A program made the position numbers and the translations under genes. This document shows, piece by piece, positions 3,641-55,854 of a DNA stretch of 64,000 nucleotides. The DNA comes from Sipunculus nudus. Lineage: Eukaryota > Annelida > Sipuncula > Golfingiida > Sipunculidae. The notes beneath the pieces were generated by a model. It did no database searches. It saw nothing but the letters and a program-made list of their open reading frames with translations, and had not been told where the DNA came from. Where the stretch lies: NCBI GenBank assembly GCA_026874595.1, contig CM049308.1, forward strand, positions 21,117,867 to 21,181,866, given 5' to 3'. The stretch's first letter is position 1. Each line of letters begins with the position of its first letter.

Positions 3641-4495
3641 TAGCCCAGCTGACTGAAAGTCATCTGAGCTATAGGGATCATTCTTTGTCCGCGGAGCTAT
3701 CGGGCTCAGAAGTACCCTAAGTATACTTGAAAAATTGATACAACTGCTCAAGTATCTGGACAACTAATGTATTGCTCACCATGATTCTTTGCATGCATAT
3801 TGATCATGGAGTGTTTCATCAGTTCCTCTAGACTGGTGGCGCCACCTTGATTTTTTTCAAACTTGTGTGCATTTTTTACTCTATTTTGAGACCTTCAAAG
3901 ATACGGTCGTCCATTAACAGAGCACAAATCGAGACCACTGGACCTAAAATCTTCTAACTTGAAATTTAAGGAGCTCATTGATAAATCTCCTTGAAAACCT
4001 GAAATCAGGTCTCTGTTACCCATAACCTCTGAGCTATGATGCTCAGAGGTAAACCCCATATTAATAAAATATTTGATACAAAAGGTCAAGTATCTGAACA
4101 ACTAATGCATCGATCACCATGATTCCTTGCATGCACATTCATCATTGAGTGTTTCATCAGTTCCTGGAGACTGGTGGTGCAACCTGGAATTTTTTTTCAA
4201 ACTTTTTTGCATTTTCTTTCAATTGTTATTGTTGAGACCTTCAAAGATGCGGTCGTCCGTTAACAGGGCACAAATCGTAACCATATCACCTAGAATCTTC
4301 CACCTTGACATCCAGGGAGGTCCATGAAAAATTTCCTTGATAACCTAAAATTAGGTCTCTGTTACCCATATCCTCCGAGCTATGCTTAAGTTGAATGACG
4401 ATACCTCAGACAAAATTTGGCATTGATAAAATTCCTTTTGTGAATGTTTCCTAATCAGCTATGCGTCATGACCCCTGGGTCACTTGTTTTGTCAT
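3641..4495 (+). repeat. Dispersed repeat R-A, copy 2
   Basis: Starts 'ttagcccagctgactgaaag' and ends with 'gcgtcatgacccctgggtca'. Internally it holds two tandem versions of the family core (each with 'gagaccttcaaagat.cggtcgtcc.ttaacagggcacaaatcg'), at about 3780-4075 and 4100-4390. This shows that copies differ by number of internal units. Confidence 0.8.
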
Positions 4496-13965: not shown

Positions 13966-14678
13966 TAATAATTTTTCAAGTCATATTGGATAAACAGTTG
14001 TGTTTATGTGGTAAGAACTTCACGGAATTAGTAATATCTTACTTGTAAGCATGCGCAGATGAAATGTAAATAGAAGGTGTTTCTTTAAAATGAAACAAAT
14101 TTTATTTTCGAAGTTTGACAATTGTGACAAGTAGTCCCGGCCAACCCCATAATCCCAAACTGGAAGAAGTTCGTTTTGAGTCGAAGCGACCCCTGGCGGA
14201 AGGGTGGCTGTTACCCGACGCACTTATGTCTGAGAGCAGCGGGCCTTTTGTTGTGGCAGGAACTGGTCTAGAGACTTCTTGTATTTGTGCACGGGACTTC
14301 CCGGGTTTGTCAATAATCACTTGGGAAGATCAGAGTTGGGTAAGGGCATGGAATTACGATGGAGAACCTGAGGACAGTTTCTTGGTGGTCATCTATCTGC
14401 GGACCATTAAGTGGCCATTGGACCCGTATCTACCAAGCACAAGCCGGAAAAACGCTTTTAGGAACAGCGCGCCCTCATCCGCAATTAATAGAAGAAGCGT
14501 TCAATACAATGGATATTCTTCTCTCACAGGAGCTGCTTACCCCTTGCATATGGAAGCCGTGGTCTATATAGAAGCGGGAAAGGTCGCCTGCTCCGGTGTT
14601 TGTATCTCTAAGCGGGTGGTGCTCACGTGCGGGGAATGCCTTCAAGATGAAACAGTCACCAACATCAAGTATGTCATA

Positions 14679-14720
14679 TATTTATTATTATTATTATGAT
14701 TATTATTATTATTATCATTA
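14679..14720. repeat. (TTA)n microsatellite
   Basis: TTA triplets with small interruptions, inside the presumed intron of the trypsin-like remnant. Confidence 0.9.
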
Positions 14721-29590: not shown

Positions 29591-29773
29591 ACAGAGAGCA
29601 AGTCTACATATAAATTGCTTCTGGCGTCAACAATATATAATAAGCTTTTAAAATGCTCATATAAAACGAAATATAAAACTTTCAATTATGTTGTGACATT
29701 TATGCTCCGTTTTGTCATCTACTTGCAACTTTCAAAACTGTAAACTGGTTGTAAACCAAATGCACAAGAAATC

Positions 29774-30712
29774 AAGCCGTGTTGTGGTTGTAAAGATGGG
29801 ACTTGCATTGCGGATGACTGTCAGTGTAAACCTTAAAGTGCACCAACTGCCTAACCACGCTCTGCAAAAACAACCAAGCTTGGTCTGAAAGATGCTGTTG
29901 ATGCACAGTCAAGGGAGTATGTGGAAAATGTTCATGTTCAACTAAAATTGTGTGTACCAGCTGCGTTCCAGCTGGATCGATGTCAAAATACAACAGAAAA
30001 TACTTCATTTGGATCTGAGGAAAGTGGTCACAGGATTGTTCACATAAATGCCCAGTCTCTGAGAAGCCAAATCAAGGTAAAAAAAAAATATAAGATCAGG
30101 AACTACTTTCTATACCTGCAGTAATGGGGACTTGGTTTAGCCAGTATAAAAGTGTTCCGAAGCAGAAATGCCTGGATGCAGTCTGTTACGAGAGGACCGC
30201 CCTACTGATTTGAAACAGAAAGTCAAGAAGAAGAAAATAGTTGAATTTATATGTTAAAGTTGGTTGCTCAAGTTGTTGATATCGAAAGTGAGGAACTAGA
30301 TTTTTCAAGAAAACAAACTATATTCTTTGGAGAAGTTAACCATCCTCTTGATATATAGGGATCATTGACTGAACATTTTAACGCACAGCTCAAGATAGCA
30401 AAGACAAAAAGTAACAAAAGTTGTGATCCTTGGAGATATCAATATTGATGGTGAAATGAAGCCTGCTCTAGATGTTATAAAAAGAGGGATGCTGACTCAA
30501 CTTGGACGCAGTAAAAGGATAGCGATACGATACTTATGGTTCTCCGGGACAACAAATTACATCAGGTGATTAAAGAAATTACAAGACCTGAAAGCCAAAC
30601 ACTGCCTGGCCTGATCTTTGTTTCCCATTCAAAGAAGGGTATTAGAGAGTAGGGTAGTCGCCGACATAAAAATAAATAACCACTCTCCTGTTGTTATCAT
30701 ATGGAAGGCCGA
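29774..30712 (+). pseudogene. Decayed Cys-repeat/EEP endonuclease relative of 44488-47571
   Basis: In order: KPCCGCKDGTCIADDCQCKP at 29774, then CTNCLTTLCKNNQAW in another frame, a second unit with CC*CTVKGVCGKCSCST and CTSC, then SGHRIVHINAQSLRSQIK (about 30025-30080), AVMGTWF, VILGDINIDGEM (about 30425), LHQVIKEITRPESQTLPGLI (about 30550) and NHSPVVIIWKAD (about 30678). The intact minus-strand gene has the matching blocks GHRMVHVNVGSLLNKMGKVK, AVSETWF, VVLSGDFNIDMF, LHQVITEPTRFVKLIDLVFV and DHSPVCITWK in the same order. At least two frameshifts and several stops break the reading frame. Only two Cys units remain recognisable. Even the catalytic Glu of SETW is Gly here. No reverse transcriptase remnant was recognised after it. 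Confidence 0.8.
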
Positions 30713-32289
30713 TACGTAAGTCAGCAGAAAGGACGCTAGTAAAAAGTGAGCCATCAGAAGAGAAAATCAAGGAAAATCAAGAGTCAAAAGTTTAATAGAC
30801 CGAAGACTTTGCACCATATGATGCATTGCAGCTTTTTGAGTATGTTACAATATTCACGATGAACGAATATAACAAATAATTAGTGAGACAATGAGACACA
30901 CCGCAAAAAAAGATTTGATATAACGATATTATAATTAATTGTAAAATATCTTAAAGCATATATAAAATATGTAGTGCCTGGTAAAATGGCATTTAAAACA
31001 ATACGAAGACGTCAAAGATATATTTGTGTAATTTACACGTTCGGCATAAGCCTCCGAAATATGTCGGTGTTTTAGAATGGTTGTATTATAAGCCTGTGTC
31101 AGAGCTTGTGGCCCTGCCTTTAGATGTGAATATTTTATCTTAAAAGAGTACTAAATATTCATTTTTCAGTGAGCTTGACTCATTCGGAAGTCTAAATAAA
31201 AGGAATTCTTTTATAATAATATAATAAAGTTATACTAAATGGTGTTTTACATCTTTGGAATGAAATTATAGTTTACGTTTCAGTAAAATAACGTAATGGG
31301 CAAAAACATAGGATCCATTTCTTGAAATGGAAAATGCGCATGAATGGCTATTTTCTCTTTTTTCATGTACAGTTCCAATTAGCTATACTTTAGATATTGA
31401 TGATTAAAGTGATTGGTTCATGAAATGTCTTCCCATAATGATCTCGGTTTTTTTTTTTATAAATATTCTTTACACAATGTGGTTGCAATAACAAACTATT
31501 ACTTAGTCGCAGATATAAAAATTTTAATGAGTATTGTATTCTTGTGAAGTTGATAATTATAATCGAGAAGATAAGATATTATTATCATATCAATGTCAGA
31601 TAACAATGCGAATCTTTTAACTACGTGTCTGCTGAGCCGATACCAGTGTGCTTCCCTTAAACATTGATCATATCCATTGATCTATGAAGTGCTTCGACAC
31701 CGTTGACCCATCTCATAGCAGATCTGTTCTATAATATGATTTACCAGGCTCTAGATCATTTTAGTACGTCCTTATCATTCACTTGTCCATACACCAGAGC
31801 AGTAGTTTATCACTGTTCACCTGTCTACAGGCCAATGAAGCACTTGGACATCGTCCACGTATCCAGGGACCCGAGTGGTACTTCGACATGATTTACCCCT
31901 TTATATAACTGGTCAACAAGGCAACCCACGGACAATAACATCCCCCCCCCGGGTCGTCCAGAAGATACTGAAAATTGTGGAGAACTTCGAAACATATATT
32001 AGATTATTTGAGGGATATGAGTGACTGTTTTAAAAAGAGTGATTTGGCAGGCCGGGACTAGTCGTGAAATACAAGAAAGCATTAAGCATATTAATATACA
32101 ACCGTGCAAACAATATTATCCTTGTTATGCTTTCATGTGACCCAATGGTCATGACGCACAGCTAACTCGCCTAACAATTACAACAGGGATTTCCTGATTT
32201 AAAAACCGAATTGAGAGTCTGATCAAATCTGATCTTGACCTTCTTGCAAAGAATGGGAAGAATGAATCCAATTATAAGTTGTCTATTCA
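30713..32289. other. AT-rich stretch, nothing recognised
   Basis: No motif. A frame of about 25 codons at 30800-30880 continues near the pseudogene but shows no clear relation to a reverse transcriptase. Confidence 0.45.
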
Positions 32290-38019: not shown

Positions 38020-40995
38020 ACAATTGTATATGTAAAGGATCCAAACAACTGCATGTACAGGTGATCCAGGAAAGATCCAAACAACAGCAAGTAAAGGAGA
38101 TCCAAAAAAGATCCAAACAACAACATGTATAGAAGATCCAGTAAGGATCTAAAAACAGCATGTAACAGAGATCCATTAAGGATCCAAACAACTGCATGTA
38201 AAGGTGATCCAGGAAGGATCCAAACAACAGCAAGTAAAGGGGATCCAAAAAAATCCAAACAACAACATGTATAGAAGATCCAGTAAGGATCTAAAACAGC
38301 ATGTAACAGAGATCCAGTAAGGATCCAAACAACTGCATGTACAGGTGATCCAGGAAGGATCCAAACAACAGCAAGTAAAGGAGATCCAAAAAAAATCCAA
38401 ACAACAACATGTATCGAGGATCCAGTAAGGATCTAAAACAGCATGTAACAGAGATCCAGTAAGGATCAAAACAACTGCATGTAAAGGTGATCAAGGAAGG
38501 ATCCAAACAACAGCAAGTAAAGGAGATCCAAAAAAATCCAAACAACAACATGTATAGAAGATCCAGTAAAGATATAAAACAGCATGTAACAGAGATCCAG
38601 TAAGGATCCAAACAACTGCATGTAAAGGTGATCCAGGAAGGATCCAAACAACAGCAAGTAAAGGAGATCCAAAAAAAAGATCCAAACAACAACATGTATA
38701 GAAGATCCAGTAAGGATCTAAAACAGCATGTAACAGAGATCCAGTAAGGATCCAAACAACTGCATGTAAAGGTGATCCAGGAAGGATCCAAACAACAGCA
38801 AGTAAAGGAGATCCAAAAAAGATCCAAACAACAACATATATAGAAGATCCAGTGGGGATCTAAAAACAGCATGTGACAGAGATCCAGTAAGGATCCAAAC
38901 AACTGCATGTAAAGGCGATCCAGGAAGGATCCAATCAACAGCATGTAAAGGAGATCTAGCAAGGGTCCAAACAACATGTATAGAAGATCCAGTAAGGATC
39001 TAAAACAGCATGTAACAGAGATCCAGTAAGGATCCAAACAACTGCATGTAAAGGCGATCCAGGAAGGATCCAATCAACAGCATGTAAAGGAGATCTAGCA
39101 AGGGTCCAAACGACATGTATAGAAGATCCAGTAAGATCTAAAAACAACATGTAACAGAGATCCAGTAAGGATCCAAACAACTGCATGTAAAGGCGATCCA
39201 GGAAGGATCCAATCAACAGCATGTAAAGGAGATCCAAAAAAAGATCAAAACAACAACATGTATAGAAGATCCAGTAAGGATCTAAAACAGCATGTAACAG
39301 AGATCCAGTAAGGATCCAAACAACTGCATGTAAAGGTGATCCAGGAAGGATCCAAACAACAGCAAGTAAAGGAGATCCAAAAAAGATCCAAACAACAACA
39401 TATATAGAAGATCCAGTAAGGATCTAAAAACAGCATGTAACAGGGTCCAGTAAGGATCCAAACAACTGCATGTAAAGGTGATCCAGGAAGGATCCAATCA
39501 ACAGCATGTAAAGGAGATCTAGCAAGGGTCCAAACAACATGTATAGAAGATCCAGTAAGATCTAAAAACAGCATGTAACAGAGATCCAGCAAGGATCTAA
39601 ACAACTGCATGTAAAGGTGATCCAGGAAGGATCCAATCAACAGCATGTAAAGGAGATCTAGCAAGGGTCCAAACAACATGTATAGAAGATCCAGTAAGAT
39701 CTAAAAACAACATGTAACAGAGATCCAGTAAGGATCCAAACAACTGCATGTGAAGGAGATCCACTAAAAATCCAAAAAACAGCAAGTAATGGAGATCCAA
39801 AAAAGATCCAAACAACAACATGTAAAGGAGATCTAGTAAGGATTCAAGCAATATGTAAAGGAGATCCAGTAAGGACCCATAAAAAACAAAGTAAAGGGCA
39901 ACCAGTAAGGATCCTACCAACAGCATGTCAATGAGATCCAGCAAGGATCAGATCAACCGACAACATGTAAAGAAGATACAGTAAGGACCAAACAACAGCA
40001 TGGAAAGGAGATCCAGTAAGGATCCAACCAACAGCATGTTAATGAGATCCAGCAAGGATCTAACCAACCGACAGCATGTAAAGGAGATACAGTAAGGACC
40101 CATAAAAACATTACGTAAAGGGCATCCAGTAAGGATCCAACCAACAGCATATAAAGGAGATTTAGTAAGGATTCAAACAACAGCATGGAAAGGAGATCCA
40201 ATAAGGATCCAAACAACAGCAAATTAAGGAGACCCAGTAAGGATCCAACCAACAGCCTGTAAAGAAGATTTAGTAAGGATTCAAACAACAGCTTGGAAAG
40301 GACATCCAGTAAGGATCCAACCAACAGCATGTTAATGAGATCCAGCAAGGATCTAACCAACCGACAGCATGTAAAGGAGATACAGTAAGGACCCATAAAA
40401 CATCAAGTAAAGGGCATCCAGTAAGGATCCAACAAACAGCATATAAAGAAGATTTAGTAAGGATTCAAACAATAGCATGGAAAGGAGACTCAGTAAGGAT
40501 TCAAACAACAGCATGGAAAGGACATCTAGTAAGGATCAAATCAACAGCATGTAGAGGACATCCAGTAAGGATCCAACCAACAGCATGTCAATGAGATCCA
40601 GCAAGGATCTAACCAACAGACAGCATGTAAAGGAGATACAGTAAGTATCCAAACAACAGCATGGAAAGAAGATCAATTCAGGATCCAAACAACAGCATGT
40701 AAAAGAGATCCAATAAGGATCCAAACAACAGTATATTAAGGAGATTCAGTAAGTATAAAAACAACAGCATGTAATTAAATGAGATCCAGTAAGGATCTAA
40801 ACAACAGCATGTACGGGACATCTGAAGTGATCCAAACAACAGCATGTAAAGGAGATCCAGCAAGGATCCAAAAAACATGTTAAGGAGTATAATAAGGATC
40901 CAATCAACACCATGTAAAGGAGATACAGTAAGGATCTAAACAACAAATGTAAAGAGATCCAGTAAGGATCCAAACCACATCATGGAAAGGAAAGG
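38020..40995. repeat. Satellite array, about 36-bp monomers in about 142-bp higher-order units
   Basis: Monomers read like GATCCAGGAAGGATCCAAAC followed by 'aacagcaagtaaagga' (36 bases). Up to about 39740 four monomer types alternate in fixed order (actgcatgta, cagcaagta, caacatgtatag, cagcatgtaacag), giving an interval of 141-143 bases between 'actgcatgta' words at 38048, 38191 and 38332. After 39740 the order is lost and monomers are single and more diverged. Nearly every monomer has two GATCC words. The minus-strand frames here (up to 260 codons) are a by-product: the monomer is a multiple of three and lacks stops on that strand. Confidence 0.92.
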
Positions 40996-43254: not shown

Positions 43255-44480
43255 CATCGCACGGTCTTTTACATTTTGTTCGGGTCACCACGCATGCTGT
43301 GATCACGCAGTGCTCTGTTATAGTTTTCACAGTCACAATACTCTTAAGGTGGTTTTCCATAAGTGCGTAGTGCGTATCCGTAGTCCGCATGCGTAGTCCG
43401 TATGCGTAGTCCGTATCCGCAAAGTTCGTTTTCCATAAGTACGTATATGCGTAGTCCGTACTCCGTATTGATATGTGCTCGAAAGCTGTTTTTTTTTTTT
43501 TTTTTTTTTTGCAAGCCATTTTACCATATATGTATTGTACATTTGTATATATTAGCATCAAAAGTTAAAAACAATAAAATTAAAAATAATAAAATTTTTA
43601 AAAGATCAAAATTAGTAATATTTTATACGTGACAGTGATGTTAACGCTTCAATCATAAAAAAAAACATGTTGTCTGTGATAAAGAAAGGAAAACAAAATT
43701 CAGCCAAATGCCAATATGTTTGGTTGCCGGAAAACTGATGCCAGAAATGACATTTGTGCCAGTTTGACATAGAGACCAGGTGCATACAGCACGGCCTGAA
43801 TGGGAAAACTCTATGGTAAACCTGAAATCGACACGATGATTGGTATGCGTAGTGCGCAAAAATAGCTCCCGGCAGCGTGCGGATACGGACTACGCATGCG
43901 GATGACGCATGCGGATGAATGGAAACGGCCCAGTTAAAAAGTCTACAAAGCGATTTTTGCGGACTACGCATACGGACTACGCATACGGACTACGGATACG
44001 GACTACGCACTTTTGGAAAAGTACCGTTAGTGTGCGTGTTTCTGTTACAGGTTTTACAGTCGTCTCAGAGTGTCTCTGCCCTCTTACAGATAACAGCTAC
44101 ATTATAGCAGTCATCCGTGTCACAGACTTTGGTTCGGTTATAATTTTACAGTCACAGGAATTTGAGGGCGCATGTCTCTGATTCAGGTTTTGCAGTCAGC
44201 GGACTTTGACAGTGCCTGGCTCTGTTAGAAGTTTTACAGTTTTACATTCATCGGACTCTGAAAATACGCGTCTCTGTTACAGGTTTTACAGTCACCGGAA
44301 TCTGAAAGTGCATGGCTCTGTCCCAGGGTTTGATTTTACAGTCAATGGAATCGGAGTACACATGTCTCTTTTACAAGTTTTACAGTCACCGGAATCTGAA
44401 AGCGCTTGGTTCTGTTAAAAGTTTCAAAGTCAAGAGACTATGACAGCGGACAGCTCTGTTACAGCTCTGTTTGTACTTTT
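43255..44480 (+). repeat. About 44-bp minisatellite, split by a MITE
   Basis: Units such as GTTTTACAGTCACCGGAATC followed by 'tgaaagtgcatggctctgttacag' repeat with strong divergence, with units at about 44040-44480 and remnants at 43260-43343. The array begins within about 10 bases of the stop codon of the minus-strand Cys-rich gene, so it lies in that gene's downstream flank. Confidence 0.75.
43347..44026. mobile_element. 680-bp fold-back MITE with TTA duplication
   Basis: The left end AGGTGGTTTTCCATAAGTGC is mirrored by a right end whose inverse reads CGGTACTTTTCCAAAAGTGC. Both arms (about 43347-43460 and 43880-44026) contain subrepeats of CGTAGTCCGTATGCGTAGTC. TTA occurs at 43344-43346 and 44027-44029. 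Joining the flanks with a single TTA restores a minisatellite unit ('cagtcacaatactcttagtg' against 'cagtcaccggaatctgaaag'), which supports these boundaries. A T-run (about 43489-43511) is inside. No transposase; the superfamily is likely PIF/Harbinger from the TTA duplication. Confidence 0.8.
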
Positions 44481-44487
44481 TCTTTCA

Positions 44488-47400
44488 TTATTCACTTTTC
44501 CATGTTATACATACTGGACTGTGATCACCTAAACCTACTGCATCTAAGCGTGGCACCGTAGTCTCAACTACTTTGTCCACATCAGAGACAAACACCAGAT
44601 CAATCAGTTTTACAAAACGGGTAGGTTCCGTTATTACCTGATGGAGACCTTTGTCACGGGGGATTGTATTCATCCTGGCCTTCCGAGAAACATCAAACAT
44701 ATCAATATTGAAGTCTCCCGATAGTACAACATTATCGTAGTTATTACAAGCGCGGGTGAGTTCCTTTTCAAAGTGATCATACCATTCAGCAGTCTCCTTA
44801 GGAGGACGATACATTGTTCCTATAAGAATGGTTTGTTTATCTGGAAAATTCACCTCTACCCAGAGTGACTCGATTTGTCCAGAGCTTATACTAGGCAACT
44901 TGCGGCATTTGTTAGAGTCTTTCACATAAAGTGCAACGCCCCCACCCAGCTTCTCACCCGGTCTGTCCTCTCGAAATAATTTGTAGCCAGGAATTTGTGG
45001 ATCTAGATCCTGCATGTTATTCTTAAACCACGTCTCAGACACGGCTAGTACTGACACTGGCTCCTTTGCCAGTAGTTCCTTTACTTTACCCATCTTATTT
45101 AACAAAGACCCGACATTAACGTGAACCATTCTGTGCCCTTGTTTCTTTAAACCAAAACCCTGCTTTACATCCTGACTTCTTAAACCTTTTCTTCTATTTT
45201 CACAGGATGGAGAAAAACAACTCGTGCAAGACCTTCCCTTCTCCGCACATACACAAGAGTTGCAGTCTCCAGACGTACATTTGCAGCAAAACATGAAACT
45301 ATCATTAACACATCGACATCCCGGAGCCTCGCAGTTGGTACAAGCTTTCCCATTTGACCCACACACACAGTTTTCACAAGCTCCGCTTCGGCAGCTACAA
45401 CACTTTTCATTCATGGCGGATAAAGATAAGTCTGATACATTTTCGCATCCCAAAGACTCACAGTTGGTACAAGCTTCCCCACTCGCTCCACACACACAGT
45501 TTTCACAAGTTCCATTTTTGCATCTACAACATTTTGCATTCTCAGAGGATATAGATGGTTTTGATGCATATTTGCATCCTGAAGACTCACAGTTGGTACA
45601 AGCTTCTCCACTCGCTCCACACACACAGTTTTCACAAGTTCCATTTTTGCATCTACAACATTTTGCATTCTCAGAGGATATAGATGGTTTTGATGCATAT
45701 TTGCATCCCGGAGACTCACAGTTGGTACAAGCTTCCCCACTCGCTCCACACACACAGTTTTCACAAGTTCCATTTTTGCATCTACAACATTTTGCATTCT
45801 CAGAGGATATCGATGGTTTGGATGCATATTTGCATCCCGGAGACTCACAGTTGGTACAAGCTTCCCCACTCGCTCCACACACACAGTTTTCACAAGTTCC
45901 ATTTTTGCATCTACAACATTTTGCATTCTCAGAGGATATAGATGGTTTTGATGCATATTTGCATCCTAAAGACTCACAGTTGGTACAAGCTTCCCCACTC
46001 GCTCCACACACACAGTTTTCACAAGTTCCATTTTTGCATCTACAACATTTTGCATTCTCAGAGGATATAGATGGATTGGATGCATATTTGCATCCCGGAG
46101 ACTCACAGTTGGTACAAGCTTCCCCACTCGCTCCACACACACAGTTTTCACAAGTTCCATTTTTGCATCTACAACATTTTGCATTCTCAGAGGATATAGA
46201 TGGTTTTGATGCATATTTGCATCCCGAAGACTCACAGTTGGTACAAGCTTCCCCACTCGCTCCACACACACAGTTTTCACAAGTTCCATTTTTGCATCTA
46301 CAACATTTTGCATTCTCAGAGGATATAGATGGATTGGATGCATATTTGCATCCCGGAGACTCACAGTTGGTACAAGCTTCCCCACTCGCTCCACACACAC
46401 AGTTTTCACAAGTTCCATTTTTGCATCTACAACATTTTGCATTACCAGAGGATATAGGTGGTTTTGATGCATATTTGCAACCCGGAGACTCACAGTTGGT
46501 ACAAGCTTCCCCACTCGCTCCACACACACAGTTTTCACAAGTTCCATTTTTGCATCTACAACATTTTGCATTCTCAGAGGATATAGATGGTTTTGATGCA
46601 TATTTGCATCCTGAAGACTCACAGTTGGTACAAGCTTCCCCACTCGCTCCACACACACAGTTTTCACAAGTTCCATTTTTGCATCTACAACATTTTGCAT
46701 TCTCAGAGGATATCGATGGTTTTGATGCATATTTGCATCCTGAAGACTCACAGTTGGTACAAGCTTCCCCACTCGCTCCACACACACAGTTTTCACAAGT
46801 TCCATTTTTGCATCTACAACATTTTGCATTCTCAGAGGATATCGATGGTTTTGATGCATATTTGCATCCTGGAGAATCACAGTTAGTACACGCCATCCCT
46901 TTCACTCCGCATGCACACCCTTCACAATTCCCAGTTTTGCATCGGCAACATTTTCCATTCAATGCTTGGCTACCTGCACCTGTAGTTTTTGAACCGTGCT
47001 GGCTTTGCTTGGTCTTGCTTTGGATATTATTGCAAGACGGTGATTCACAACTTGTACACCCTCTTCCTTTCAATCCACATGCGCATGATTCACATTTACC
47101 ACTTTTGCACTTGCAGCATCTAACAACGGCTGGTTTACTGGAAGATCCACCAGCGTATGCTCTTTTACTGTTATGTGAAGTTGATGGAAGCCCAGCTGTA
47201 TACCCATAGGAAGATCTCAGTGATGTGGAATTCGTACAGCCTGATGAAGAACAGTTGACACAAGCTTCACCTTTGAGTGCGCATGCGCATGAATCACAAC
47301 TTCCTGTTCTGCACCTGCAACACGTGTTTGTAGATTGTTGCCTGTATTCTGCTGATGGTCCGCTGGTATAACTGATGTTGTATCCTGATGAGATGCCGTA

Positions 47401-47571
47401 TGCTGCACTGCTGTGGTATGACGACGTTGAGCTGCTTGTATATCCGCATGCTGATGCTCCGCCTGCGTTGGTGCAACCCGGGGATGCGCAGTTTGTACAA
47501 GCGCCACCACTCCTTGCGCATACACATGACGTGCAACTTCCGCTCTTACAACGACAACATCTGCTGCTCAT
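44488..47571 (-). CDS. Nine-cysteine repeat protein with C-terminal EEP endonuclease domain
   Basis: One uninterrupted frame of 1027 residues, starting at MSSRCCRCKSGSC. Seventeen units of the form CC-x-C-x4-C-x2-C-x-C-x6-C-x2-C-x4-C (nine Cys each) fill residues 4-793. Units 1-4 are separated by Ser/Thr/Tyr-rich linkers; units 5-15 (residues 250-722) are near-identical 43-residue repeats; units 16-17 are diverged. Residues 812-1027 form an EEP/AP-endonuclease-like domain: HVN (Asn819), SETW (Glu846), MYRPP (Tyr921), SGDFN (Asp953, Asn955), LIDLVFV (Asp991) and GDHSPV (Asp1016, His1017). The expected catalytic residues are thus present. It resembles the endonuclease of CR1/L2-like non-LTR elements, yet the frame stops just after this domain with no reverse transcriptase. 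Nine Cys per unit would fit a Zn3Cys9 cluster (CXC/tesmin-type) or metallothionein-type metal binding; this is inference. No introns, no signal peptide and no downstream AATAAA were seen. It could be a domesticated gene or part of a retroelement. Confidence 0.85.
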   Translation of the reverse strand: MSSRCCRCKSGSCTSCVCARSGGACTNCASPGCTNAGGASACGYTSSSTSSYHSSAAYGISSGYNISYTSGPSAEYRQQSTNTCCRCRTGSCDSCACALKGEACVNCSSSGCTNSTSLRSSYGYTAGLPSTSHNSKRAYAGGSSSKPAVVRCCKCKSGKCESCACGLKGRGCTSCESPSCNNIQSKTKQSQHGSKTTGAGSQALNGKCCRCKTGNCEGCACGVKGMACTNCDSPGCKYASKPSISSENAKCCRCKNGTCENCVCGASGEACTNCESSGCKYASKPSISSENAKCCRCKNGTCENCVCGASGEACTNCESSGCKYASKPSISSENAKCCRCKNGTCENCVCGASGEACTNCESPGCKYASKPPISSGNAKCCRCKNGTCENCVCGASGEACTNCESPGCKYASNPSISSENAKCCRCKNGTCENCVCGASGEACTNCESSGCKYASKPSISSENAKCCRCKNGTCENCVCGASGEACTNCESPGCKYASNPSISSENAKCCRCKNGTCENCVCGASGEACTNCESLGCKYASKPSISSENAKCCRCKNGTCENCVCGASGEACTNCESPGCKYASKPSISSENAKCCRCKNGTCENCVCGASGEACTNCESPGCKYASKPSISSENAKCCRCKNGTCENCVCGASGEACTNCESSGCKYASKPSISSENAKCCRCKNGTCENCVCGASGEACTNCESLGCENVSDLSLSAMNEKCCSCRSGACENCVCGSNGKACTNCEAPGCRCVNDSFMFCCKCTSGDCNSCVCAEKGRSCTSCFSPSCENRRKGLRSQDVKQGFGLKKQGHRMVHVNVGSLLNKMGKVKELLAKEPVSVLAVSETWFKNNMQDLDPQIPGYKLFREDRPGEKLGGGVALYVKDSNKCRKLPSISSGQIESLWVEVNFPDKQTILIGTMYRPPKETAEWYDHFEKELTRACNNYDNVVLSGDFNIDMFDVSRKARMNTIPRDKGLHQVITEPTRFVKLIDLVFVSDVDKVVETTVPRLDAVGLGDHSPVCITWKSE
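45406..46824 (-). repeat. Eleven near-identical 129-bp coding repeats
   Basis: Units 5-15 of the Cys-rich gene repeat every 129 bases (for example CTCAGAGGAT at 45541 and 45670). The Cys-containing 30 residues are identical across the eleven units apart from Ser/Pro/Leu after GlutaSer (ESSG, ESPG, ESLG); most other changes are in the linker. Diversity is far lower than among units 1-4, indicating recent expansion or homogenisation. Confidence 0.92.
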
Positions 47572-49649: not shown

Positions 49650-52600
49650 ATAAGTGGCCCATGGGCCATGACGCTCAGCTGAATTCAAGGAGCCTTGAAA
49701 AATGGGCGAAAGACTCCCAGGGTGCTCAAAATCATGCATTTTGCCAACAGCCCTTAGATATGCAGTGACCTTATTCTACATGCAGCTTCTACCATTTGTG
49801 CCTACCAGACTAATTAAGTGTAAAAATCAAGTTCTTTCACACAGCTTGCAGAAAATGGGTCAGAGTCACATTTCAGGTTTCCAAGGAGATTTTTAGGGAC
49901 CTCCCTGAAAGTCATGTATGAAGATTTTAAGCCAAATGGATAAAATATGTGCCCCATCTGACTCACCTGTTGCTTAAAAATCATGTTTTTTCCCCTAATT
50001 TGCAAAATATAGTTACCCATGACCTAGTTTCAAGTTATCAAGGATATTTTTCATGGAACTCCAAGGATTTCAAGTTAGAAGATTCTAGGTCCAACACTCA
50101 GGATTTGTGCCCTGTTAATGGACAACTGTTTCATTTGAAGTTCTCAAAAAAGACATAAAAACGTGTAAAAAATTTGAAACTAGAATGGCCTAGTTTCTGC
50201 AGTGCAAAATTGTTCTATGTCTAATCATTAGGGGTAAAATATGCAATATCTCAAAACAATGAATCTAGATTTCAGCAAATTAGACATTGAAGTTGACGTC
50301 AAGGTCACCGCTTTTCGAACTCTGATGACATTATGGCAGAAAGATCTGGTGTGTCAAATTTGAAGAAAAAGTCTTCAGTACCTCCTAAGTTATGGGGTAA
50401 CAATAAGCCTAGAATTGCATAAATTTGACCTTGAAGATCAAGGTCAAGGTCACAGAATTTCTAACACATCCAAGACTTCGGTAAGAAAAATAAGTGTTTC
50501 AAATTTCGGAGGAAAATTTACAGCCCTTCAAAGTTATCTCATCCACAAGACAATAACTATAATTCGGCTGATTTTACCTTGAAGATCCTTATCAGGGACA
50601 CCAGGTTTTAAACGCGTCTGAGAACTTCGTAGTAACAGTTGGTGTACTATATTTGAGGACAGAATTGGAAATACTACAAAATTAATGGGGCTCACAAAAA
50701 TGTTTCATTTCAGCCTATTTGACCTTGAAGAAAAATATCAAGGTCACCAGGTTTCAAACTCCGATGAAATTTTGGTAAGAACAATGAGTGTTTCAAATTT
50801 TGGAGGAAAATATGCAGCCCTTCAAAAGTTATCTCATCCAAACTTTCTGCTGATTTGACCTTGAAGATCCTGGTCAAGGTTACCAGGTTTCAAAGTCACC
50901 CGAGAGCTTGGTAGGAACAATTGATTGTTGTACCAAATTTGAGGACAAAATAGGAAATACTTCAAAAGTTATGGGGTTAAAAAAAAATTACATTTCTGCA
51001 GATTTGACGATAAAGGTCAAGGTCAAACATATTCAAACTCATTCGTGATTTTGGTTGGAACAATTGTTGTACAAAATTTGGAACACAATGTGAAACACTT
51101 CAAAAGTTATGGGGTTAAAAAAAATTACATTTCGGCAGATTTGACCTGATAAAGATAAAGAACTGATAAGGAATCTAGTGATCAATACATTAGTTGTTCA
51201 GATACTTGTAACAGAGACCTAATTTTAGGTTTCCAAGGAGACATTTCATGGGCCTCCCTCCACGTCAATAGAGAAGATTCTAGGTTCAGTCGTTACGATT
51301 TGTGCCCTGTAAACAGATAACCGCATCTTTAAGGTCTAAATATAGAGATAAAAAATCATAAAATATTGAAGAGATACACGTGGCACCACCAGTATGCAGA
51401 AACTAATGAAACACTTCAATGCATTAGTTGTTCAGATACTTGAGCTTTGGTATAAATTTTCCATTATTCTGGGGAGTACTTTGAAGCCCTATAGCTCAGA
51501 GGATTTGGGTAACAGAGACCTAATTTCAAGTTTCTTAGAAGACATTTCATGGGCCTCCTTGCATGTCAAGAAAGAAGATTCTAGGTCCAGTCGTTACGAT
51601 TTGTGCCCTGTTAACAGATGACCGCATCTTTTTAGGTCTCAAAAATAGAGGAATAAAATCGTAAAAATTTGAAAAAAAATACAGGTGGCGCCACCAGTCT
51701 GCAAAAACTTATGAAACACTCCAAGAAGAATATGCATGCAAAGAATCATGGTGATCAATGCATTAGTTGTTCAGATTCTTGAGTTTTGTATCAATTTTTC
51801 CATTATTCTGGTGGATACTTCAAAGCCCCCTAGCTCAGAGGATTTGGGTAACAAAGACCTAAATTTAGGTTAGCGAGAAGACATTTCATGGCCTCCCTGC
51901 ATGTCAAGAAAGAAGATTCTAGGTCTAGTCGTTACGATTTGTGTCCTGTTAAAAGATGACCGCATCTTTTAAGGTCTCAAAAATAGAGAAAAAAAATCGT
52001 AAAAAATCGAAAAAAATACAGGTGGCGCCACCAGTCTGCAAAAACTTATGAAACACTCCATGAAGAATATGCATGCAAAGAATCATGGTGATCAATGCAT
52101 TAGTTGTTCAGATTCTTGAGTTTTGTATCAATTTTTCCATTATTCTGGTGGGTACTTCAAAGCCCCCTAGCTCAGAGGATTTGGGTAACAAAGACCTAAA
52201 TTTAGGTTAGCGAGAAGACATTTCATGGCCTCCCTGCATGTCAAGAAAGAAGATTCTAGGTCTAGTCGTTACGATTTGTGTCCTGTTAACAGATGACCGC
52301 ATCTTTTAAGGTCTCAAAAATAGAGAAAAAAAATCGTAAAAAATCGAAAAAAATACAGGTGGCGCCACCAGTCTTCAGAAAATGATGAAACACTCCATGA
52401 CAATATCCATGCAAACAATCATGGGGGATCAATGAATTAGTTGTTCAGATACTTGAGCTTTTGTATCAAATTTTTTTAGAGTACTTCGGAGCCCAATTGC
52501 TCGAAGAATATGGGTAACAGAGACCTAATTTCAAGTTTCCAAGGAGATTTTCCATGAACCTCTTAGGATGTACAGTTAGAAGTATCTAGATCTCATGGTT

Positions 52601-53775: not shown

Positions 53776-53865
53776 TTCGAAGTGGCCTTCCATCTTGAAG
53801 CTAGTTTTTGATGACCACGGCTACCCTAGTGCTGTGACCTCAAATCCTGCTATCCTGCATGACTT

Positions 53866-55795
53866 GACACGGGCAAGGGAAGGCCCCGTCACATTTTTGT
53901 GAACACTGGGCACAGGTATAAGGATAGGCCCTATCACATATATGTGTAGACTGGACACAGGCAAGGGAAGGCCTCGTCACATTTTTGTGAACAATGGGCA
54001 CAGGTATAAGGATAGGCCCTATCACATATATGTGTAGACTGGACACAGGCAAGGGAAGGCCCCGTCACATTTTTGTGAACACTGGGCACAGGTATAAGGA
54101 TAGGCCCTATCACATATATGTGTAGACTGGACACAGGCTAGGGAAGGCCTCGTCACATTTTTGTGAACACTGGGCACAGGTATAAGGATAGGCCCTATCA
54201 CATATATGTGTAGACTGGACATAGGCAAGGGAAGGCCTCGTCACATTTTTGTGAACACTGGGTACAGGTATAAGGATAGGCTCTATCACATATATGTGTA
54301 GACTGGACACAGGCAAGGGAAGGCCTCGTCACATTTTTGTGAACACTGGGCACAGGTATAAGGATAGGCCCTATCACATATATGTGTAGACTGGATACAG
54401 GCAAGGGAAGGCCTCGTCACATTTTTGTGAATACTGGGCACAGGTATAAGGATAGGCCCTATCACATATATGTGTAGACTGGACACAGGCAAGGGAAGGC
54501 CCCGTCACATTTTTGTGAACACTGGGCACAGGTATAAGGATAGGCCCTATCACATATATGTGTAGACTGGACACAGGCAAGGGAAGGCCCCGTCACATTT
54601 TTGTGAACACTGGGCACAGGTATAAGGATAGGCCCTATCACATATATGTGTAGACTGGACACAGGCAAGGGAAGGCCCCGTCACATTTTTGTGAACACTG
54701 GGCACAGGTATAAGGATAGGCCCTATCACATATATGTGTAGACTGGACACAGGCAAGGGAAGGCCCCGTCACATTTTTGTGAACACTGGGCACAGGTATA
54801 AGGATAGGCCCTATCACATATATGTGTAGACTGGACACAGGCAAGGGAAGGCCCCGTCACATTTTTGTGAACACTGGGCACAGGTATAAGGATAGGCCCT
54901 ATCACATATATGTGTAGACTGGACACAGGCAAAGGAAGGCCTCGTCACATTTTTGTGAACACTGGGCACAGGTATAAGGATAGGCCCTATCACATATATG
55001 TGTAGACTGGACACAAGCAAGGTAAGGCCCCGTCACATTTTTGTGAACACTTGGCACAGGTATAAGGATAGGCCCTATCATATATATGTGTAGACTGGAC
55101 ACAGGCAAGGGAAGGCCCCGTCACATTTTTGTGAACACGGGGCACAGGTATAAGAATAGGCCCTATCACATTTTATTGAAGACTGAATACAGGCAAGGAA
55201 AGGCCCCGTCATATTTTTGTGTAGACTGGACACAGACAAGGGAAGGCTCCGTCACATTTTTGTGAAGACTGGACACAGGCAAGGGAAGGCCCCGTCACAT
55301 TTGTGTGAACACTGGGCACAGGTATAAGTATAGGCCCTATCACATATATGTGTAGACTGAATACAGGCAAGGAAAGGCCCCGTCATATTTTTGTGTATAC
55401 TGGACACAGGCAAGGGAAGGCCCCGTCATATTTTTGAGAAGACTGGACACAGGCAAGGGAAGGCCCCGTCACATTTTTGTGAAGACTGGACACAGACAAG
55501 GGAAGGCCCCGTCATATTTTTGTGAAGACCGGACACAGACAAGGGAAGGCCCCGTCACATTTTTGTGAAGACTGGACACAGACAAGGGAAGGCCCCGTCA
55601 CATTTTTGTGAAGACTGGACACAGGCAAGGGAAGGCCCCGTCACATTTTTGTGAAGACTGGACACAGGCAAGGGAAGGCCCCATCACATTTTTGTGAAGA
55701 CTGGACACAGGCAAGGGAAGGCCCCGTCACATTTTTGTGAAGACTGGACACAGGCAAGGGAAGGCCCCGTCACATTTTTGTGAAGATTGGACACA
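53866..55795. repeat. Satellite array, 44-bp monomer evolving into 88-bp dimer
   Basis: From 53866 to about 55170 the unit is 88 bases: one half 'acacaggcaagggaaggccc' + CGTCACATTTTTGTGAAC, the other half 'gcacaggtataaggataggc' + CCTATCACATATATGTGTAG. The halves are themselves related. From about 55400 to 55795 only the first half type occurs, at 44-base spacing, with GAAGACT in place of GAACACT. The zone between mixes both. At least 14 dimers and about 9 monomers are present. The ladder of 68-codon minus-strand frames starting every 88 bases is a by-product. Confidence 0.93.
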
Positions 55796-55854
55796 GGAAG
55801 GTGCCAAGAGTCAGATCTAGTTACCTGTACCAGGAGGCATGTGTTGGTCCCTGT

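Follow-up and report, generated by a model that had tools for sequence, protein, structure and literature searches.

Non-long-terminal-repeat (non-LTR) retrotransposons of the LINE-1 and CR1/L2-like clades carry an EEP nuclease domain. Well-known cases of domestication include transposases, integrases and reverse transcriptases. To our knowledge, it seems rare for a host to keep a retroelement endonuclease as a gene without a reverse transcriptase (RT). Bovine Bcnt, going by the title of a 2003 report cited in PMC7284322, is an earlier case of a host protein that contains a retroelement endonuclease domain. Here we describe P0001, a predicted gene on the minus strand of a 64,000-nucleotide stretch of Sipunculus nudus DNA (contig CM049308.1, positions 21,117,867 to 21,181,866) that we call the window. 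This gene is predicted to encode an array of nine-cysteine modules followed by an EEP nuclease. It resembles non-LTR retrotransposons in the EEP domain itself, which is recognized by Pfam and by profile comparison, keeps the catalytic residues and has RT-bearing loci as its nearest relatives in the genome. It differs from them in that the EEP is followed by a stop codon instead of an RT and is preceded by the nine-cysteine array. As far as the cited title describes it, Bcnt is similar in placing a retroelement endonuclease domain within a host protein and different in the region joined to that domain. We take the Bcnt endonuclease to come from another element clade and to have no cysteine array. 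Among the matches listed from the open literature, no title described a fusion of EEP with CXC or metallothionein.

We give an even chance to the proposal that P0001 belongs to a clustered host gene family, here called CysEEP, in which a nine-cysteine metal-cluster array is joined to a non-LTR-type EEP without RT and acts with it as a tethered nicking endonuclease.

The P0001 frame and its two parts

The features of P0001 are as follows:

44488..47571, minus strand: gene P0001, nine-cysteine array and EEP nuclease, 1027 amino acids, open frame
45202..47559, minus strand: array of 17 nine-cysteine modules, residues 5-790, found by strict pattern
45532..46821, minus strand: modules 5-14, ten near-identical 129-base units (mean 3.5 differences per 129 bases, range 0-7)
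44491..45156, minus strand: EEP domain, residues 806-1027, ending at the stop codon (Pfam match, profile match and invariant residues)
45115..45117, minus strand: catalytic Asn819, invariant
45034..45036, minus strand: catalytic Glu846, invariant
44707..44715, minus strand: catalytic Asp953 and Asn955 (GDFN), invariant
44599..44601, minus strand: Asp991, invariant
44521..44526, minus strand: catalytic Asp1016-His1017, invariant

The frame starts with an ATG at 47571 and its stop codon ends at 44488, exactly the coordinates and the 1027 codons given in an original prediction made from the sequence alone. Upstream of the ATG there are eight more sense codons before a stop, giving 1035 codons from stop to stop. 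Among frames of at least 200 codons P0001 is by far the longest in the window; the second-longest (661 codons, 45224-47209, plus strand) is antisense to the P0001 repeat. The gene had been called intronless, and what stands of this is that it reads as a single uninterrupted frame. A short way downstream of the stop codon, tandem 44/94-base repeats occupy 44143-44432.

The pattern CC-x-C-x4-C-x2-C-x-C-x6-C-x2-C-x4-C occurs 17 times between residues 5 and 790, the number of modules originally predicted, and these modules contain 153 of the 155 cysteines in residues 1-800. Modules 5-14 are a recent amplification; modules 1-4, 16 and 17 are diverged.

The Pfam family Exo_endo_phos matched residues 819-1013 of P0001 (E 1.3e-8, 35.4 bits, cut-off 24.5) and scored 54.1 bits, against the same cut-off, on P0002, an intact relative described below. 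Exo_endo_phos_2 was below its cut-off on P0001 (23.1 versus 27.4 bits). The best matches to a profile of three EEPs were LINE-1 endonuclease structures (2v0s, E 2.4e-6; 1vyb, E 3.9e-6). Asn819, Glu846, Asp953, Asn955, Asp991, Asp1016 and His1017 were invariant across P0001, P0002 and the RT-bearing locus L004. We take the Asn, Glu, Asp/Asn, Asp and Asp-His of EEP domains to be catalytic residues. On the profile evidence, the EEPs of P0001 and P0002 belong to the EEP (Exo_endo_phos) superfamily, and the expectation of a nuclease domain that appears to retain these residues is borne out by the match over cut-off and by the invariance.

A clustered family without reverse transcriptase

The genome searches were scored for the best candidates only, which for the EEP query were the best 142 of 1043. 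Besides the window locus, these included two that lie on the same contig and match the query at 47% identity; the other 139 matched more weakly. Locus L003 (C3:21.2356-21.2371 Mb, about 70 kb from P0001) contains an intact frame of 510 amino acids, P0002, with seven modules and then an EEP in the same order as P0001. The two EEPs are 48% identical and their C-terminal ends coincide (ITWDKKR-stop in P0002, ITWKSE-stop in P0001). Another locus, L002, differs from L003 at 5 of 511 codons, of which one is silent, three change an amino acid and one turns a Cys into TGA. Because the 2.9-kb flanks on both sides of L002 and L003 are nearly identical, L002 is taken as a copy of L003 made either by recent segmental duplication or in the assembly. 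By contrast, P0001 and P0002 share no related sequence in their 3-kb flanks, whose best match has an E value of 0.005 over 29 bases. The window itself contains one more copy:

29744..30719, plus strand: degraded family copy in which parts of the last two modules and of the EEP survive, interrupted by in-frame stops and shifts of frame

P0002 aligns to 29780-30643 of this copy (E 1.8e-14) across several stops and frame changes, and its last module, at 29836-29973, was also picked up as locus L040. By eye, the copy reads VMGTW for SETW, GDINID for GDFNID and NNHSPV for SDHSA/GDHSP, and its tail, IIWKADT-stop, lies at the family's C-terminal position. No RT was found there. Few family loci were found among the best-scored candidates, all of them on contig C3. 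P0001 is therefore not a singleton and belongs to a small clustered family. Scans seeded with short peptide patterns confirmed no relative among viral contigs or in bacterial and archaeal genomes.

Between the EEPs of P0001 and P0002 the proportion of amino-acid-changing differences (pN) was 0.35 and that of silent differences (pS) 0.73; dN was 0.47 and dS 2.7, which is near saturation. Among 21 pairs of seven distinct modules of P0001, mean pN was 0.25 and mean pS 0.83. All nine pattern cysteines were kept in 24 of 24 modules of P0001 and P0002, with TGT and TGC alternating at every one of the nine places, and they were invariant in the 14 distinct modules of alignment A1. Because pN is below pS, the cysteines are kept with varying codons and the flanks are unrelated, it is the coding frame that appears to have been kept rather than the surrounding DNA. 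By these measures the two intact genes have diverged under constraint, from which present-day expression does not follow.

We searched for RT using the L004 protein (EEP plus RT) as a tblastn query over the window, the fetched loci and the 10-kb flanks on both sides of P0002 and L002 (E at most 1e-3). At retroelement loci, used as a control, the alignments ran on into the RT. In the window and at P0002 and L002 with their 10-kb flanks no RT was found and the query matched the EEP part only. The claim that P0001 lacks RT thus held over the window and the fetched flanks, and longer homologous copies with an RT after the EEP, the outcome that the original prediction had named as refuting it, were sought in this genome and not found. 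Of the other EEP loci, 18 distinct ones were scored for RT in any frame of at least 120 amino acids within the fetched sequence, and 17 had it. Six loci were left out of this set as near copies (L005, L006, L008, L014, L016 and L019), and RT was matched in all six. The one exception among the 18, L035 (G000:C12:51775600-51779900), in whose 4.3 kb no RT was found, holds a 250-amino-acid EEP frame that may be either a truncated element or another EEP without RT.

In an unrooted tree of 19 EEP rows (L015 was excluded, its EEP being too short), P0001 and P0002 grouped together at 99/98 and adjoined the RT-bearing L004 and L007 at 85/87, on a branch that was not starred. Loss of the RT would be the simplest reading, with the direction not proven by an unrooted tree. 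The suggestion of a domesticated retroelement endonuclease gains support here, because the copies have a common domain order and a common end, the searched surroundings yielded no RT, and amino-acid-changing differences per site are fewer than silent ones.

Comparison of the modules with other cysteine-rich domains

The modules resemble CXC domains (tesmin/TSO1, LIN54, MSL2) in having nine cysteines that, over much of the second half, are spaced alike. They differ in lacking Cys-8, in an extra cysteine right before Cys-1, in a mostly shorter spacing from Cys-3 to Cys-4, in the missing DNA-contacting tyrosine and in occurring as 7 or 17 copies in tandem. The CXC consensus stated in PMC3447885 is CX[C/H]X2-13CX4-7CXCX5-60CX2-4CX1-2CX2-15CXN, with a C-x-Asn signature. 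Cys-8 of this consensus was missing in 24 of 24 modules of P0001 and P0002, and the spacing from Cys-3 to Cys-4 was 2 in all 17 P0001 modules, versus at least 4 in the consensus. C-x-Asn followed the last cysteine in 9 of the 14 modules of A1 and in 5 of the 17 of P0001. In LIN54, a tyrosine before the central C-x-C is described as entering the minor groove (PMC4974476). This residue was missing at its place in all 24 modules, and LIN54-type sequence-specific binding is therefore not expected. Cys-8 of MSL2 (Cys558) is described as ligating one zinc only, and with the extra cysteine in front of Cys-1 the modules still have nine, so that three metal ions per module are plausible by analogy.

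With Pfam, the only family found on the 14 distinct modules was TCR (CXC, PF03638), in 2 of 14 and with a best E value of 1.4; the entire P0001 array matched no family up to E 10. Six places were listed when the genome was searched with PF03638, the P0001 and P0002 loci not among them. We then compared profiles, using a CXC profile of four sequences of which two were unconfirmed. Alignment A1 matched it in hhalign with a probability of 68% (E 4.7e-5), as well as which only 1 of 200 spacing-permuted templates did, and the probability was 67.8% when the two unconfirmed sequences were removed. The modules of P0001 alone reached 11%, with 34 of 200 permuted templates as good, which is not significant. 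The predicted Zn3Cys9/CXC kinship is suggested by the profile of all 14 modules but not by the P0001 modules by themselves, and it fails for Cys-8 and for the tyrosine.

In single-template tests against L052, the second LIN54 domain, the first LIN54 domain and L051, the permuted templates as good (of 100) numbered 32, 1, 4 and 7 for the 14 modules, 31, 2, 3 and 5 for the P0002 modules, and 60, 66, 14 and 46, which is chance, for the P0001 modules. When the module profile was run against LIN54, the full and spacing shuffles as good (of 2000 each) were 1 and 84 for the first domain and 9 and 9 for the second; for two plant-type CXC domains, whose sequences were unconfirmed, they were 12 and 208, and 0 and 7. 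Taken together, homology of the modules to Zn3Cys9/CXC domains is suggestive only. We do not file the modules under CXC, although they may act like CXC domains. The 32 of 100 for L052 (1-1599; G000:C10:18.64 Mb) is a chance-level match. This locus has an integrase zinc-binding match (PF17921, E 1.5e-7) and then a separate 339-amino-acid frame ending in a CXC-like stretch (PF03638 E 0.039, below cut-off) that lacks Cys-8, as the modules do.

A search of the genome with the first four modules of P0001 matched its own modules and nothing else, and no further nine-cysteine array was convincing, both among the best-scored candidates. L041 and L042 were rejected as repeats or chance, and the candidates L022 and L023 were full of stops. 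The cysteine-rich stretch before the EEP at L014/L016 was rejected as a source of the array; that of L016 is a frame of what we take to be the CCHC zinc-knuckle type, with a stop before the EEP. Rusticalin-type cysteine-rich repeats were set aside from their description as a defensin-like repeat, with a signal peptide in one protein (PMC7379824).

Metallothioneins are similar in that the modules, too, are cysteine-rich and probably form thiolate metal clusters. They differ in that the cysteine order of the modules is unmatched, the modules are joined to a nuclease and P0001 has no upstream metal-response core. These comparisons bear on the main alternative to CysEEP as a tethered endonuclease, a metal- or redox-gated nuclease in which the array would chiefly be a metallothionein-like store or sensor whose metal loading and release switch or shield the EEP. 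Cysteine makes up about 20% of the P0001 array and 24% of that of P0002, up to 17 modules occur per chain, and array length can shift quickly by 129-base amplification, all of which would suit such a role. However, two human metallothionein domains (sequences unconfirmed) were at most weakly above shuffles, with 109 and 232 of 2000 full shuffles and 657 and 244 of 2000 spacing shuffles matching the module profile as well. Within 1 kb upstream, the metal-response core occurred 0 times for P0001 and once for P0002 (shuffle means 0.36 and 0.33), which gives no support to metallothionein-like control. We regard a gated nuclease as possible but unlikely.

A putative tethered nuclease and its alternatives

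If P0001 is a CysEEP host gene as we propose, its product would be intracellular. Both intact proteins start directly with a module and have no signal-peptide-like start, making a secreted, disulfide-bonded role less likely. The nine thiolates of every module would coordinate some three divalent metal ions, and the array as a whole would be a multivalent, CXC-like tether making many weak contacts with DNA, chromatin or RNA. The tethered EEP would be a Mg2+-dependent nicking endonuclease, and a nick made without target-primed reverse transcription would leave a processed or degraded target and no insertion. Our guess at the substrate is foreign or mobile nucleic acid. The LINE-1 endonuclease domain by itself is reported to cause DNA damage and cell toxicity (PMC4176336). 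A host keeping such a domain would therefore need to aim or restrain it, for which the array is the obvious candidate. The fuller version of this proposal, a host nuclease of retroelement origin in which an expandable variant-CXC array is a multivalent, possibly metal-gated tether for nicking mobile or foreign nucleic acid in defence or genome processing, is tentative, with the chances well against it.

Several results weigh against the CysEEP proposal, including the chance-level matches of P0001's own modules to CXC and the missing tyrosine. No TATA-like box was found in the 400 bases upstream of P0001 and no AATAAA/ATTAAA within 1.5 kb downstream, whereas P0002 has a TATA-like box upstream and AATAAA/ATTAAA downstream. 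With 88 K+R against 59 D+E, the array of P0001 is no more than mildly basic. Structure prediction gave no usable model, with a predicted local distance difference test score of 33 for the EEP alone and 60 for a module. The family also decays: the window copy at 29744-30719 is dead, L002 carries its TGA at codon 354, and four of the five codon differences between L002 and L003 change or end the protein, with no constraint visible.

This decay is what would be expected if P0001 were a decaying remnant, an old fusion without present function whose copies are disappearing. Yet P0001 and P0002 have both stayed intact, with their catalytic residues, at 48% EEP identity and with silent sites near saturation, which makes a remnant distinctly unlikely. 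Still lower we place a non-autonomous element, still or recently mobile with RT borrowed in trans. It would account for an EEP adjoining RT-bearing elements in the tree and for several copies on one chromosome, but the few loci found among the best-scored candidates are all on C3, the flanks common to P0002 and L002 look like those of a segmental or assembly duplicate, and those of P0001 and P0002 are unrelated; we consider it improbable. A truncated retrotransposon joined by chance to a cysteine-rich repeat would explain the retrotransposon type of the EEP but is barely credible, and a single truncated retrotransposon was rejected, given that diverged members are alike in architecture and C-terminal end with no RT found in their flanks.

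Elsewhere in the window there are tandem arrays at 3735-4384 (346-base unit) and 51416-52475 (337-base unit); compared by eye, the starts of their consensus sequences read as reverse complements of each other. A satellite with a period of 36/139 bases and an AT skew near 0.47 lies at 38035-40991, its 36-mer being present in about 83 copies, and an 88-base unit is repeated in tandem 22 times at 53861-55801. A frame at 14094-14699, possibly an exon, has a trypsin match below cut-off (PF00089, E 0.007, 16.7 versus 20.6 bits).

The array is a fast-changing tandem repeat and its copy number may vary between individuals. If expressed and active, CysEEP would show how a retroelement cutter is restrained and aimed, and would offer a naturally occurring case in which a nuclease carries a long array of metal clusters.

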